This document shows, piece after piece, positions 42,892 to 49,924 of a DNA stretch of 64,000 nt. Source of the stretch: Gammaproteobacteria bacterium (GTDB lineage: Bacteria; Pseudomonadota; Gammaproteobacteria; S012-40); the NCBI GenBank assembly GCA_029881255.1, contig JAOUMY010000001.1, forward strand, positions 868,001 through 932,000, read 5' to 3'. Within the stretch, counting starts at the first letter, position 1. Each line of letters starts with the position of its first letter. Under the pieces are notes generated by a model, which was not told the origin of the DNA, made no database searches, and saw nothing but the letters and a program-made list of their open reading frames with translations. Made by a program: the position numbers and the translations under genes.

Positions 42892-42910
42892 TATTTTTCA
42901 GATCGACTGA

Positions 42911-42933
42911 AGGGGCTGTTGAAGCCCCTTTTT
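42911..42933 (+). terminator. Intrinsic terminator after hemE
   Basis: AGGGGCT (42911-42917) and AGCCCCT (42923-42929) form a perfect seven-base-pair GC-rich stem with a GTTGA loop, followed by TTTT. It lies 20 bases past the hemE stop. Confidence 0.88.
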
Positions 42934-43258
42934 CATTTGTGAATCCTAGTATCCTGAAACGCATATCTATACAACTCAACGATTGACGTTGATATCTGCA
43001 TTTCTAACGTCCTAGCCTTAGCCTGTCTTAGTCGATATAGGGGCGATTCCGATCTAAAAAGTATAGTGGTATCGTAGGTTCTCGTCTCTACTCTGCAATA
43101 CATGTATACAAATCGCGTATTGGGACCGTGTTCACACTTGTCACGCGAAGAAATCACAAGAACTGCGCCTCCGTTCCCTTTTGTCTGTGAGCAAATCGAC
43201 ATCACTTATACGTGAATTTTCCTATGATTTCTCTACGTTAACGTTTTCGGTTTGTATT
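42934..43258 (+). other. Intergenic region upstream of the motor-like operon
   Basis: These 325 bases follow the hemE terminator and should contain the promoter of the 43259-46643 operon. The sequence CGATCTAAAAAG at 43050-43061 recurs exactly at 46803-46814, before the chemoreceptor gene. TATAGT at 43063-43068 could act as a -10 box, but no good -35 is paired with it. A reading frame on the minus strand here has no ribosome-binding site or protein-like composition, and I leave it out. Confidence 0.4.
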
Positions 43259-45580
43259 ATGTTGTCAGACCAAGTTCTGGATCAAAAGTCTCAAACTGCA
43301 GAGGCCTTAGTGCCGATGATTGATCTGTTTGCTGTCCTGGCGTTGGTCTTCATGCTGTATTCGACGCAGGAAATAATCGACGTAAAAGTAGAGACTGAGC
43401 AGCAGATACAGGAAATTGTTACACAAGTTGAAACAGAGAAAAAAGAGGAGTCACGGCGTCGAGCCTTAGCGCAGAATTCAAATTTGACATTAGACATGAT
43501 TAAGCAGCGACAGCAGGAACAAGCTGAAGAGCTGATGCAAAAATTCGCTCAATTATTGGCGGTAGAGCAAAAGAAATTTGCAGGTGAATACGAAGAGCTG
43601 GTAGTCGATATCGAAGACAAGCATGCTCGTCAGCGAGAAGATTTGGAAAAACAACGAAAGCAGGATCTTGCAATCGCAGAACAGAATTATCGCGACAATT
43701 TGGCTGCCAAAGAACGTGAGCTGGAAGAGCGAAAATATGTTGCCATAGAGCAAGCGGAACGTCGATTTGCCGGGCAACTTGTGGAACAACAAACGCGTTT
43801 GGAACAACAAAAGCGCAAAGAGTTAGAGATCGCGCGCTCTGCGCTTGAACAGGCACTTGCGGATCAAGAGTCTAAACTGGCTGATAAACGAAAAATCGAA
43901 TTGGCTAAGGTCCAGGCAGAATATGCGCGGACGCTAACCGATCAAAAAACTGCATTAGAACACCAGAAGCGAAAGGTGTTGGATGAGGCGAAGCTTGCAT
44001 TTGACCAGGCTTTGCGTGAAAACGAAAAGCAAGAGCTGGAGAACAGACGAGCTGTAATGGATAAGGCGCAAGACGAATACCGGCGCGCGTTATTGGCGCA
44101 AAAGATAGCGTTAGAAGCGCAGCGAAACCAGGAATTGAAAAATGCTGAGCAGGACTACCAGCGAGCTTTGTCAGAACAGCAGTTCGAGCTGGCACGAAAG
44201 AAACGGGAAGAACTCGCCAAGGCAAAGCAAATACATATGGCAGCGCTTTCCGAACAAAAAGCTGTTTTGGAAACACAAAAGCGCCATGATCTGGAAAAGG
44301 CGCATCAAGCATATCAGGACGCCATTAGAAGTAATAAAAGCCGTATGATTTCTGAGAAGAAAATGGAATTGACTCAGGCAAAGCGCGATTACGCAGATGC
44401 CTTAGCCGTGCAAAAAACGGCACTGGAGGCAGAAAAACAGATGGCGCTAAAGCAAGCGCACAAAGAGTATCGTGACGCCATAAAAAACAAAGAAACTGAT
44501 TTAAGCAAAGAAAAACAAATGGCTCTTGCTAAGGCGCAAGAAGAATACTTCCAGGCACTGGCAGAACAGAAAACGGCATTAGAGCGACAGACGCGCGAGA
44601 CTTTGAGTCGTGCACAGCAGGCATACGATAAGGCGCTCGCGTCAAAGCAGACCCAGATTGCAGCAAAAACTCATCGGGAACTTGAGCGCGCCAGGGCTGA
44701 GCATGAGTCTGCATTACAAGCTGAACGTGTTGCACTGAACGCGCAGAAGAAAGAAGCGCTTCAAAGAGCGCAACAGGAATATGATGACGCGCTTGCAGAA
44801 AACAAAGCGCAATTAGCAAAGGAAAAGGGTGTTGATCTGGCAAAGGCTAAAAGTGAATACGACAAAATGCTGGCAGAGCAAGTTTCTTCCCTGGAAACGC
44901 AAAAACACAATGAGCTTGGTTTAGTTAAAGCAAAATTCAGCAAGCAATTGGAAACAGAGCGCGCCAAGGCTGGTCGCTTGAAGGGTGAGTTAGATCAATA
45001 TGTAAAGGCCATGGAAGCCAAAGAAAAAATAGTATCGGAACTGAAGGAAAACTTTCTAGACTTTGATTCGCGCGCGGTAGAAATCGACAGTAAGACTGGG
45101 CGTGTGAAGCTGCATTTTCAACAGTCATACTTTAAGCGTGGAAGAGGCGAGCTAACCGATGAGATGAAGGCAGTATTGCGGGTAATGATCCCTAAATATG
45201 CGAAAAGTATTTACTCCAACAAGGAAGCGGCTAAACAACTGGGTTCTTTGAAAATTACGGGTCTTACATCCCCGGTGTATCGTGGCCGTTATGTGGATAT
45301 TAATGATAAATCGAGAGAGTCGGAAGCGGCGCGTAAATATAATCTCAAACTTAGCAACGATAGAGCGCTGGCGATGTACAACTTTATATTCTCCGATCCT
45401 TCCATGAGGAGCTTCCCCTATAGGGACGAATTGAAAGCCGATATGAGTATTTCCGCACAGGGATATTTGAACGCTAGCCCGGTACCGAAACGTCTGGTTG
45501 GGAAAAAGGCAAATTGCGTAGACTATGATTGCAGTCAGGAACAGGCGGCTGTATTGCAGTTCAGGATGAACCTGGACTAA
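43259..45580 (+). CDS. ExbD/MotB-like membrane protein with a long periplasmic helical-repeat rod and OmpA-like C-terminal domain
   Basis: From the ATG at 43259 it is 773 residues; a TTG at 43181 is in frame but adds an unusual 26-residue lead. A short N-terminus is followed by one membrane helix, LVPMIDLFAVLALVFMLYS. Its Asp22 lies in a P-x-I-D context, as in the ion-carrying Asp of ExbD and TolR. Residues about 119-560 are 17 tandem 26-residue helical repeats. Residues about 600-773 resemble the OmpA/MotB peptidoglycan-binding domain: YFKRGRGELTDEMKAVL, then SLKITGLTS, then YNLKLSNDRALAMYNFI. A MotA/TolQ-like gene follows after 31 bases. Together they look like an ion-driven stator with a periplasmic rod. 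The role is unknown. ZorB, MotB, TolR and ExbD are the nearest relatives I can name, but none has such a rod. Confidence 0.8.
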   Translation: MLSDQVLDQKSQTAEALVPMIDLFAVLALVFMLYSTQEIIDVKVETEQQIQEIVTQVETEKKEESRRRALAQNSNLTLDMIKQRQQEQAEELMQKFAQLLAVEQKKFAGEYEELVVDIEDKHARQREDLEKQRKQDLAIAEQNYRDNLAAKERELEERKYVAIEQAERRFAGQLVEQQTRLEQQKRKELEIARSALEQALADQESKLADKRKIELAKVQAEYARTLTDQKTALEHQKRKVLDEAKLAFDQALRENEKQELENRRAVMDKAQDEYRRALLAQKIALEAQRNQELKNAEQDYQRALSEQQFELARKKREELAKAKQIHMAALSEQKAVLETQKRHDLEKAHQAYQDAIRSNKSRMISEKKMELTQAKRDYADALAVQKTALEAEKQMALKQAHKEYRDAIKNKETDLSKEKQMALAKAQEEYFQALAEQKTALERQTRETLSRAQQAYDKALASKQTQIAAKTHRELERARAEHESALQAERVALNAQKKEALQRAQQEYDDALAENKAQLAKEKGVDLAKAKSEYDKMLAEQVSSLETQKHNELGLVKAKFSKQLETERAKAGRLKGELDQYVKAMEAKEKIVSELKENFLDFDSRAVEIDSKTGRVKLHFQQSYFKRGRGELTDEMKAVLRVMIPKYAKSIYSNKEAAKQLGSLKITGLTSPVYRGRYVDINDKSRESEAARKYNLKLSNDRALAMYNFIFSDPSMRSFPYRDELKADMSISAQGYLNASPVPKRLVGKKANCVDYDCSQEQAAVLQFRMNLD
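43613..44938 (+). repeat. About 17 tandem 78-base repeats coding 26-residue helical units
   Basis: The coding sequence contains 17 head-to-tail units of exactly 26 codons without a gap, residues 119-560 from the ATG start. Shared positions are Ala3, Leu4, Glu/Gln6-7, Leu11, Lys/Arg14-16, Leu19, Lys21, Ala22 and an aromatic or bulky residue at 26 (Tyr in 10 of 17, otherwise Phe, His or Leu). Two example units are ADALAVQKTALEAEKQ... and FQALAEQKTALERQTR.... Units have diverged enough that DNA identity is not obvious. Apolar positions follow a 4-3-4-4-3-4-4 spacing, seven core positions per 26 residues. That predicts a nearly straight or slightly right-handed coiled coil instead of a simple heptad one. 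Confidence 0.88.
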
Positions 45581-45611: not shown

Positions 45612-46643
45612 ATGTTCTTATTGTTTCTGCTGTCTTTGATATCTGCACTCGGTGCGTTGGTTTATGTGAGTGGTATTACGATAACTAACGAAATGATCGG
45701 GTTTGTGTTTGTTGCGCTAATACTTCTGGTGTTCTTTGTGTATGCGCTATTCAAATTTGGATTGCACTACAAAATTAGAGCCTTGAATAAGTATGTGATG
45801 GCATTTTACTACTCTGTATTCGAATACAAAAAACGTGCTCAGAAAAGTCTGCGCACGTCGACGTATGCACATAGTTTGAGGGATCAGGCAGAAGTCGCGT
45901 TATCGGCCAATTTTGATCCGGCAGTTGCTAAAGTGGCGATGAAGGTGCCAGTCTCGATGTACACCAAGGATAGCGCTTACATGCCTGTTTTACGTGCAAG
46001 AATCAAGGAGGCAGAACGTTTGAAGCAGGAAGCACGTGATTTGGAGGAGCAGGCTTCAAAGCTAATCGAACAAACCGAAGACATTCTAGTGAAGAAAAAG
46101 ATAAAGGAAAAATCTAAAAGAGGTTCGATGTTGGAGCGTCTATTTGGCATTCAGGAAGGCGTGCAAAACATGGTCGAATTGACAGTCAATGAAGTGGCCG
46201 ACCACGATTACAGTCATACGCCGGAATATGAAATCATTACGCATATCGCTTTAGATAATAATCCGTATTTTACGTCCGTCTACAAAATATTCAGCGCAGA
46301 AAACGTTGCCGCGATACTTAATCGGGCTCCGTTTATGATTATTCTAATCGGGATAATTGGTACGTTCGCCGGGTTTTTTCTTGCATTGTCCGAAGGAGGC
46401 GATATCAAAACCGGGGCTGCAGTAGCGATCGTCAGCTCTCTGGTAGCGTTGCCGGTATCGCTTGCGGTCGACTACATTAACACGCTGTACCCGGACAGTG
46501 AACGCTACCAGCACGCGTTCAGCCGTTACAAGATAAGCCTGGAAATTCTGTTTAATTTTGAAAAAGACCGATATCCAAACCGCCGACAGCGCAGGGATAG
46601 CGACACTAGTGCTTACCAAAAACTCGACGAATTGGATGCTTAG
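45612..46643 (+). CDS. MotA/TolQ/ExbB-like proton-channel protein
   Basis: The 343-residue protein has two N-terminal membrane helices (about residues 1-20 and 29-50). A cytoplasmic charged region with a short coiled coil (about 125-175) follows, and then two helices at about 240-259 and 267-290. The third helix contains LIGIIGTFAGFFLAL, matching the G-L-L-G-T-V-x-G motif of the MotA/ExbB/TolQ family. The fourth, AVAIVSSLVALPVSLAVDYI, matches the channel-lining helix. Four helices and the large cytoplasmic loop are closer to MotA/ZorA than to three-helix ExbB. A GAGG precedes the ATG. It is the second gene of the operon with the ExbD/MotB-like protein and ends at a terminator. Confidence 0.82.
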   Translation: MFLLFLLSLISALGALVYVSGITITNEMIGFVFVALILLVFFVYALFKFGLHYKIRALNKYVMAFYYSVFEYKKRAQKSLRTSTYAHSLRDQAEVALSANFDPAVAKVAMKVPVSMYTKDSAYMPVLRARIKEAERLKQEARDLEEQASKLIEQTEDILVKKKIKEKSKRGSMLERLFGIQEGVQNMVELTVNEVADHDYSHTPEYEIITHIALDNNPYFTSVYKIFSAENVAAILNRAPFMIILIGIIGTFAGFFLALSEGGDIKTGAAVAIVSSLVALPVSLAVDYINTLYPDSERYQHAFSRYKISLEILFNFEKDRYPNRRQRRDSDTSAYQKLDELDA

Positions 46644-46733: not shown

Positions 46734-46757
46734 GCCCCGTCCCCGGGGCTTTTTTTC
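46734..46757 (+). terminator. Intrinsic terminator after the motor-like operon
   Basis: GCCCC (46734-46738) and GGGGC (46745-46749) form a short GC-only stem with a six-base loop, followed by seven T residues. It closes the two-gene unit and separates it from the chemoreceptor gene. Confidence 0.75.
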
Positions 46758-48877: not shown

Positions 48878-49924
48878 ATGTTTGTTCAAAATCTGACATT
48901 ACGCGGGATTATTTTCGCTGCAATAACAATGGCTTTCCTTGTGGCGTCAGTAAATACGCCTGCCAGCGCGGCAAAAAAAATCCCTAGTAATAAAGATGTA
49001 AAAACCTATTTGCGTCCAGCCAAAGTTCCAGAGCCCTTGGATAACAAGTTAACTCGGGAGAGAGTAAAGCTGGGCAAGGCCTTATTTTTTGATCCGAGAT
49101 TGTCATCTTCCAATTTCATTAGCTGTTCGACATGCCACAACCCTGCCCTGGGTTGGGCCGACGGGATGAAGACGGCGACCGGGCATGGAATGAAAACACT
49201 AGGCCGTGCTACGCCAACGATATTGAATACCGCGTTTCAAACGTCACAATTCTGGGATGGTCGCGCACAAACACTGGAAGAGCAGGCCTTAGGGCCTATC
49301 GTTGCCGGCGGTGAGATGGCACAGAATCTCGATGAGTTAATTATTGAACTGGTAGCGTTACCCGGTTATGTCAAGATGTTCCAGGAGGCCTATCCTGGTG
49401 AAGGTGTCACTGGCGAATCGATAGCCAAAGCGATAGCCAGTTTTGAACGCACGATTATCTCAACGGATTCACCATTTGATATGTGGCTAAAAGGGAATAA
49501 AAGAGCGATTTCAACATCTGCCGCCAGAGGGTTTAATCTGTTCAAGAACAAGGCACGATGTGTTGTTTGCCATGAAGGTTTTAATTTCACCGACAACGGC
49601 TTTCACAATATTGGATTGAAGGGTAATACGGATGATGGGCGCTTTGCCATCAAATCCGTCGCTGTTTTAAAAGGCGCATTCAAAACACCCACGTTGCGCG
49701 ATGTAGCGCTCACGGCACCATATATGCACAACGGTGAGTTCGATACGCTTGAAGAAGTTATTGATCACTATGATATGGGTGGAGAAAAGGTTGAAGGACT
49801 TTCGCCTAATATGAAACCTTTACGCCTAAGTAAAGCGGAAAAAATGGATCTGGTCGAGTTTCTAAAGTCTTTGACTGGAAAACCAAGGCGAGTAACGGTT
49901 CCAAACTTGCCCAAAGCAAACTAA
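48878..49924 (+). CDS. Di-heme cytochrome c peroxidase / MauG family protein
   Basis: The 348-residue protein has a Sec signal peptide ending near residue 33 (TPASAA) and two heme c sites, C83-STCH and C228-VVCH. Between them lie GWADG, GRATPTILNTAF and FWDGRAQTLEEQALGPI, which are signatures of bacterial cytochrome c peroxidases and MauG-like enzymes. Near the end, LKGAFKTPTLRDVALTAPYMHNG includes the usual distal methionine region. It reduces hydrogen peroxide or oxidises a protein partner in the periplasm. The following cupredoxin gene, 34 bases away, is a plausible electron donor. Peroxidase and MauG roles cannot be separated by eye. Confidence 0.93.
   Translation: MFVQNLTLRGIIFAAITMAFLVASVNTPASAAKKIPSNKDVKTYLRPAKVPEPLDNKLTRERVKLGKALFFDPRLSSSNFISCSTCHNPALGWADGMKTATGHGMKTLGRATPTILNTAFQTSQFWDGRAQTLEEQALGPIVAGGEMAQNLDELIIELVALPGYVKMFQEAYPGEGVTGESIAKAIASFERTIISTDSPFDMWLKGNKRAISTSAARGFNLFKNKARCVVCHEGFNFTDNGFHNIGLKGNTDDGRFAIKSVAVLKGAFKTPTLRDVALTAPYMHNGEFDTLEEVIDHYDMGGEKVEGLSPNMKPLRLSKAEKMDLVEFLKSLTGKPRRVTVPNLPKAN

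Follow-up and report, generated by a model that had tools for sequence, protein, structure and literature searches.

A probable ZorAB-like motor with a very long, predicted right-handed helical rod of 26-residue repeats in its B subunit

Known 5:2 motors are fitted with a short linker, with a folded shaft (18 nm in GldM) or, in ZorA, with a long tail in the cytoplasm. The extensions of ZorA are given as residues 236-696 or 100-378 (PMC11890865). The subject here is a gene pair found in a stretch of 64,000 nucleotides from a gammaproteobacterial genome (GenBank assembly GCA_029881255.1, contig JAOUMY010000001.1, positions 868,001 to 932,000 of the forward strand), hereafter termed the window and numbered from its first letter. 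The first gene (43259-45580, + strand) encodes a MotB/ZorB-like subunit of 773 residues, termed B, that carries a rod of helical repeats; its assignment is based on the open reading frame, a start kept in relatives, and PADLOC and structural matches to ZorB. The second gene (45612-46643, + strand; 21-row alignment) encodes a MotA/ZorA-like subunit of 343 residues without a long tail, termed A. The pair probably specifies a ZorAB-like, ion-driven A5B2 motor whose periplasmic rod is extreme in length and is predicted to be a right-handed coiled coil. The architecture is well supported; dimerization, handedness, the course of the rod through the periplasm and its function are inferred.

The repeat array of B occupies residues 119-560 (43613-44938, + strand) and is composed of exactly 17 gapless units of 26 residues, at the coordinates and with the unit count reported by a first-pass annotation of the window. 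When the array is compared with itself at an offset of 26 residues, the mean BLOSUM62 score is 1.26, versus -0.28 +/- 0.10 for shuffled sequences (maximum 0.02, n = 1000). The constant 26-residue offset that had been named as a check on the array is thus present, with a score far outside the 1000 shuffles. A profile derived from the units detects no extra unit on either flank (flanks below 10, units 29-46). The first-pass annotation had also described a stripe of seven apolar positions spaced 4-3-4-4-3-4-4, which corresponds to unit positions 4, 8, 11, 15, 19, 22 and 26. Only five of these are apolar, with Leu at 4, 11 and 19, Ala at 22 and an aromatic residue at 26. The other two are polar and do not fit the description: position 8 is polar in 16 of the 17 units and apolar in one, and position 15 is never apolar and is Lys or Arg in 15 units. 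The basic residue at position 15 is also kept in the relatives L006 (21 of 22 units) and L008 (20 of 22 units). In columns 4, 11, 19 and 26, 64 of the 68 residues are bulky and apolar, versus a permutation mean of 14 and a maximum of 24. Units were said to close with an aromatic or bulky residue, and position 26 is indeed Tyr (11 units) or Phe (3 units) in 14 of the 17, the rest being His (2 units) and Leu (1 unit).

The repeat has a deeper order of 52 residues. Offsets of 52, 104, 156 and 208 residues score 1.53-1.57, higher than the offsets 26, 78, 130 and 182 (1.05-1.26), and the units alternate between two kinds, 'AL..QKTALE.QK' and 'AL.SKES.L..K'. The alternation is clearest in the relatives. 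For each of the three arrays tested, units were permuted 2000 times, and no permutation reached the observed parity statistic.

Relatives of the pair were collected as 22 loci with A; L006 and L009, and likewise L008 and L010, are the same records and were each counted once. Nineteen whole B proteins were measured, including that of L054, which has only a fragment of A. At L040 the contig ends before B, and the B frames of L047 and L053 are broken. In L047 (L047:3222-4977, a draft contig) B is split over two overlapping frames, which may represent a frameshift, an assembly error or a decayed gene. The alignment of B contains 17 of the 19 proteins, L043 and L049 being omitted as near-copies.

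The hydrophobic period of the rod in the window is 3.715 residues by Fourier analysis, which equals 26/7, with a power of 29 compared with about 7 for the 95th percentile of shuffled sequences. The 3.71 residues per turn derived in the first-pass annotation are therefore confirmed. The window protein and three relatives of the same family have periods of 3.71-3.715 and powers of 29-53 (shuffle level again about 7). In all 19 rods the top period lies between 3.66 and 3.725, and 13 exceed the 95% shuffle level, among them nine of the 15 rods from outside the family. Coiled coils are classed as right-handed when the core period exceeds about 3.63 residues per turn, and the window rod at 3.715 falls in this class. 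The hendecad (11 residues) and quindecad (15 residues) are two known right-handed patterns (PMC6131620), and 26 is the sum of 11 and 15. Taken from periodicity alone, the rod would be a right-handed coiled coil.

Within the order of the window's genome, which is represented here by one family, the pair is present in four of 13 genomes, that of the window included. The relatives L006 and L008 have 22 gapless units each; L007 has about 22, with steps of +7 and -4 that leave a net gain of three residues. Units 1-12 of the window match units 1-12 of L006, and units 13-17 match units 17-21, such that the two arrays differ by exactly four units plus one, in register. The alignment agrees, with gaps of 104 and 26 residues. 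In the same unit test the window and L008 give a plain 1-17 path with no jump, and the four-plus-one reading thus rests on L006 and the five-row alignment. A tree of 17 of the 21 A rows does not separate a loss of units in the window from a gain in the others. Between the window and L006, core positions are 80% identical and the remaining positions 43%. For 21 of the 22 units of L006, the best match in L008 is its own counterpart. Codon differences peak at third positions, and for the end domains of L006 and L008 the ratio of non-synonymous to synonymous substitution rates is 0.034. Tandem Repeats Finder detected nothing in the DNA of the array, which indicates that the array is old since no repeats are left at the DNA level. 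An old duplication with a constrained unit length, as first proposed, is supported by this loss, by the in-register unit difference and by the conserved core. Strong selection on length had been proposed as well, and constraint is supported for the unit length, not for the total: unit numbers (17 versus 22) and rod lengths (357-687 residues) vary, so that the register is kept and the total length is not.

The wider distribution is patchy. In a sample of the class, the profile matches four of 369 genomes, two in the window's family, one with a window-type pair (G352) and one with a pair of a sister type (G370), which is described below. In a sample of the phylum, one of 398 genomes is matched, and that is the window's own. 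In the order of G370, 24 of 41 genomes give a match; the window's type occurs in 17, the sister type in 19 and both in 12, types being assigned by expect (E) value. Gaps of 4, 7, 18 and 22 residues are common in this order; no claim is made from them because the pairs are not independent and the alignment favours such lengths. A plasmid collection has no match to A or to the sister protein A'. Many of the genomes are incomplete drafts, and some absences may be false. A named relative, L011, lies in a metagenome-assembled genome of Pseudohongiella (OX638378.1). Its rod (L011:8114-9949) has the same helical period, and the distances between its unit-like segments can be composed of steps of about 11 and 15. 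No strict 26-residue array was seen outside the window's family (L011 by profile, the others by eye). The period is shared with these rods and they lack such arrays, thus the exact 26-residue repeat seems to be confined to the window's family.

The remainder of B conforms to the plan of a MotB-type protein. The true start is the ATG at 43259, inside an open reading frame of 43181-45580, and the start MLS... is common to the three same-family relatives. An N-terminal transmembrane (TM) helix (43316-43366, + strand) contains Asp22 (codon 43322-43324), the probable ion-binding acid, which is invariant in the 19 B relatives and is present in the sister type as well. The equivalent acids in ZorB are D24 and D21 (PMC11890865). 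A conserved helical segment (residues 37-118; 43367-43612, + strand), with a predicted break at 76-81, leads from the membrane to the array, and a predicted helix continues from the array to residue 598 (residues 561-598; 44939-45052, + strand). AlphaFold2 models the B monomer as helix across nearly all of residues 13-598, at low confidence, and the disordered region that would have spoken against the array is absent.

The end domain (residues 599-773; 45053-45577, + strand) is OmpA/ZorB-like. B matches PADLOC ZorB1 with an E-value of 3.4e-24. The NCBIfam ZorB2 equivalog model gives 25.9 bits against a cut-off of 400, and Pfam OmpA gives 14.8 bits, also below its cut-off. In VIA-align comparisons of a low-confidence model, the top structure is ZorB 8VVI chain A (Z 9.0, root mean square deviation 5.6, 147 residues aligned), followed by ZorB 8VVN (Z 7.5, deviation 4.7, 143 aligned). 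OmpA/Pal structures come next at Z 7.0 and below, the top rows as a whole lying at Z 6-9. The end domain thus appears in this model to have the OmpA/Pal/MotB fold, and ZorB is its nearest match in sequence as well as in fold. The motif GHTD is replaced by GLTS and NRRVE by EQAAV in the window protein, and the His of GHT is replaced by Leu or Met in all 17 aligned rows. The Thr that follows the replaced His and the arginine of LS..R are retained. In ZorB, changing the GHT His or certain Arg residues is described as abolishing peptidoglycan binding (PMC11890865). Since both motifs are replaced here, it is doubtful that the domain binds peptidoglycan, and it may have a different ligand. The domain also has a Cys-x4-Cys motif (C753 and C758; 45515-45532, + strand), which comprises the only two cysteines of the protein, is invariant in 19 of 19 relatives, and fits an oxidizing periplasm.

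The partner A has four TM helices, read from the sequence, and about 55 residues after TM4. It has an invariant G(I)IGTFAG motif, and T251, S275 and S276 are invariant in all 21 rows. Searches of Pfam, NCBIfam, PADLOC and the PDB sequences with A gave nothing convincing; matches to a glycerate kinase and an oxidase were taken as chance. A profile of five A rows, however, finds the sister A' at an E-value of about 1e-16, and A' in turn scores 24.7 bits with Pfam MotA_ExbB, above the cut-off of 22.9. A is thus recognizable indirectly, by way of A' only, as a probable member of the MotA/TolQ/ExbB group. B stands directly before A in 21 of the 22 loci, two of them with a broken B frame, and the 22nd locus ends there.

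The rods have a length that is difficult to accommodate. An ordinary periplasm is about 25 nm deep. At 0.149 nm per residue, the 19 rods, measured from membrane to end domain, have 357-687 residues and would extend for about 53-102 nm; each contains no proline or one. The whole predicted rod of the window protein has 554 residues (about 83 nm) and exceeds the array itself, for which the 66 nm calculated earlier is right, as is the puzzle raised with it. All 19 rods reach at least 53 nm and, if the usual topology applies, none could run straight across a normal periplasm. The simplest answer to the problem, and the most likely one, is an oblique or tangential course; folding back is its main rival.

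We infer a 5:2 assembly in which five copies of A would form a channel ring around the TM helices of two B chains, and Asp22 of B would carry the ions. In ZorA the elongated part is a long tail in the cytoplasm, whereas here it is carried by B. The two B chains would pair as a parallel dimer over 554 residues to give a continuous, slightly right-handed coiled coil in the periplasm, with the ZorB/OmpA-like domain at its end. Such a rod far exceeds the depth of the periplasm and therefore most likely runs obliquely or follows the envelope, and the site on which the motor acts, or at which it is anchored, may be tens of nanometres distant. The rod would transmit torque as a shaft that bears torsion and may be springy, comparable to the right-handed peripheral stalk in ATP synthase. 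It may hold the motor still, store twist or drive a process at the far end. In rotary ATPases, right-handed coiling is reported to make the stalk stiffer in the direction of rotation and resistant to torque, and chimeras with left-handed coiling did not work in E. coli (PMC6131620); the handedness of the rotary ATPase stalk is also described as disputed (PMC9389320).

Several observations weigh against this proposal. Six of the 15 rods from outside the family (L041, L042, L044, L046, L050 and L054) fall below the 95% shuffle level. Charge-stagger scores give no choice between parallel and antiparallel packing. In the end domain, GLTS or GMTS with an EQAAV-like motif is found in six window-type rows, versus NRRVE in four genome-mates. 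A is below Pfam cut-offs, with MotA_ExbB seen in one of 21 members at an E-value of 0.29. The AlphaFold2 models were made of monomers from few and similar sequences. That of B has a predicted local distance difference test score (pLDDT) of 58.9 and a predicted template modelling score (pTM) of 0.29, and its helix breaks at 226-232 and 445-456. That of A (21 rows) has a pLDDT of 47.4 and a pTM of 0.23, and because of these values was not used for a fold search.

The breaks in the B model are the basis of the strongest alternative, that each B chain folds back into antiparallel hairpins or a three-helix bundle and forms a compact pillar of 20-30 nm. They would divide the helix into stretches of 144, 212 and 142 residues, and folding back would remove the length problem. 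Nevertheless, the breaks sit at low confidence where there is no Gly or Pro, the 26-residue pattern continues unbroken through both, and rods of 357 to 687 residues cannot all form the same bundle. In addition, spurious bends have been reported in AlphaFold models of coiled coils (PMC11676326). Folding back is considered unlikely.

A second alternative is that the pair belongs to the Zorya anti-phage systems, or to a close variant, and that the motor would sense phage damage to the envelope and activate an effector. In its favour, B comes closest to ZorB and the sister A' to ZorA, and the distribution is patchy (four of 369 genomes in one sample of the class, four of 13 in the order). Yet no third gene recurs beside the pair in the available flanks of the 22 loci, and PADLOC finds no Zorya partner among four neighbours tested in the window. 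The gene order here is B then A, and A is without the ZorA tail, which is described as needed for Zorya defence (PMC11890865). The missing tail and the lack of another conserved gene nearby argue that this is not Zorya, and such an assignment appears improbable.

Less probable still is a mainly structural role, in which neighbouring rods would associate sideways into a periplasmic filament or lattice and the pair would act as an envelope scaffold. The regular 26/52 pattern of charged and apolar residues could in principle fix how far neighbouring rods are staggered, as happens in other coiled coils of great length. However, no stagger stands out, the best shifts of 3-4 reflecting charge pairs within a helix, and a mere scaffold would not need the invariant channel residues of A and Asp22. 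Finally, a slippage-prone, low-complexity expansion with little function, which the 17 versus 22 units and the fast change of surface positions might suggest, is very improbable and already largely refuted, as no DNA repeats are left, the units of L006 and L008 keep their identity (21 of 22), the core is conserved and the three regular arrays never lose register.

The sister pair has the same plan as the window's A and B, with an A' of about 300 residues that follows a B' of about 760-980, the latter measured on open frames of which some are cut. A' matches ZorA2 at 1e-8 and B' matches ZorB1 at 2e-25. Fifteen sister loci were examined (L038:5407-8768 and L065-L078), of which L071 is too short to measure. 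The remaining rods have a top offset of 46 residues in 14 of 14 cases, with periods of 3.535-3.545 and powers of 29-63. A search of the 369 class genomes with A' found its own genome only, and none in the window's genome. A straight helix has 3.60-3.65 residues per turn. As 46/13 (3.538) is below 3.6 and 26/7 is above it, the supercoils of the two rods should have opposite hands, each with a computed twist of about 2-3 degrees per residue for this value of the straight helix. Both rods were measured in seven genomes (G387, G395, G396, G398, G400, G407 and G408), and in three of these (G398, G400 and G408) the window-type peak is below the shuffle level. It is a rather doubtful idea that the sister motors have right-handed (26/7) and left-handed (46/13) rods with a handedness selected to match the sense of torque or the role of each. 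If it were true, torque would tighten one rod and loosen the other, or the rods would be chiral torsion springs that store turns before releasing them at a distant site of the envelope. A review speculates that motor torque is limited by what the anchoring coiled coils withstand (PMC9389320). Cells that hold two sister motors with rods of opposite twist would offer a natural test of this question.

In the window, terminator-like hairpins are found by consensus scan only, upstream of the pair after hemE (42909-42931, + strand) and, with a T run, after A (46734-46749, + strand). These flanking sites suggest that the two genes are transcribed as a unit of their own, with hemE on one side and the gene of a chemotaxis receptor on the other. 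The window's genome encodes nine other MotA_ExbB and seven OmpA-domain proteins, and at three other sites a MotA_ExbB protein was read as lying beside an OmpA-domain protein. The rod pair is therefore additional to ordinary motors. Two genes downstream is a gene for a MauG-like di-haem enzyme (48878-49924; Pfam CCP_MauG, 1.9e-57), which scores under the NCBIfam mauG equivalog cut-off. In L006, a fliM-like gene, judged by reading alone, is located about 3.4 kb after the pair (L006:11963-12976).

A full-text literature search recognized no paper on a MotB-like protein with such a rod; the set described in PMC12505986 may include proteins of this kind. That B carries a rod of 50-100 nm, which differs between relatives by whole units, suggests that a motor of this kind may have its far end at work at a distance of tens of nanometres. 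Because the unit counts add up so cleanly, the array is also a good model for how repeat rods change length without losing register.

Among known systems, the pair resembles ZorAB in its ZorB-like end domain, TM Asp, MotA-type partner and single, very long extension. It differs in that B carries the extension, which links the membrane to the end domain and is not a cytoplasmic tail of A, and further in the lack of conserved partner genes, the order B then A, and the change of the GHT His to Leu or Met. With MotAB and PomAB it shares the TM3-TM4 channel motif of A and a B with one TM helix, an Asp and an OmpA-like periplasmic end; the differences are a B rod of 554 residues in place of a short linker and the replaced peptidoglycan motifs. 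TolA and TonB likewise have a long segment from an inner-membrane motor to a domain at the far end. Domain II of TolA is given as 110-335 residues and that of TonB as up to 245 (PMC12204202), whereas the rods here have 357-687 residues and lie within the B subunit itself. The peripheral stalks of ATPases (b2, EG) are similar in being predicted right-handed coiled coils with 11/15 spacing in an ion-driven rotary machine. No sequence relation to them is claimed, and stalks of about 14-17 nm in A-/V-ATPases (PMC6131620) compare with 53-102 nm here. GldLM is a 5:2 motor with a dimeric periplasmic shaft of 18 nm (PMC9389320), but the shaft of GldM consists of four domains and is not a continuous helical repeat.

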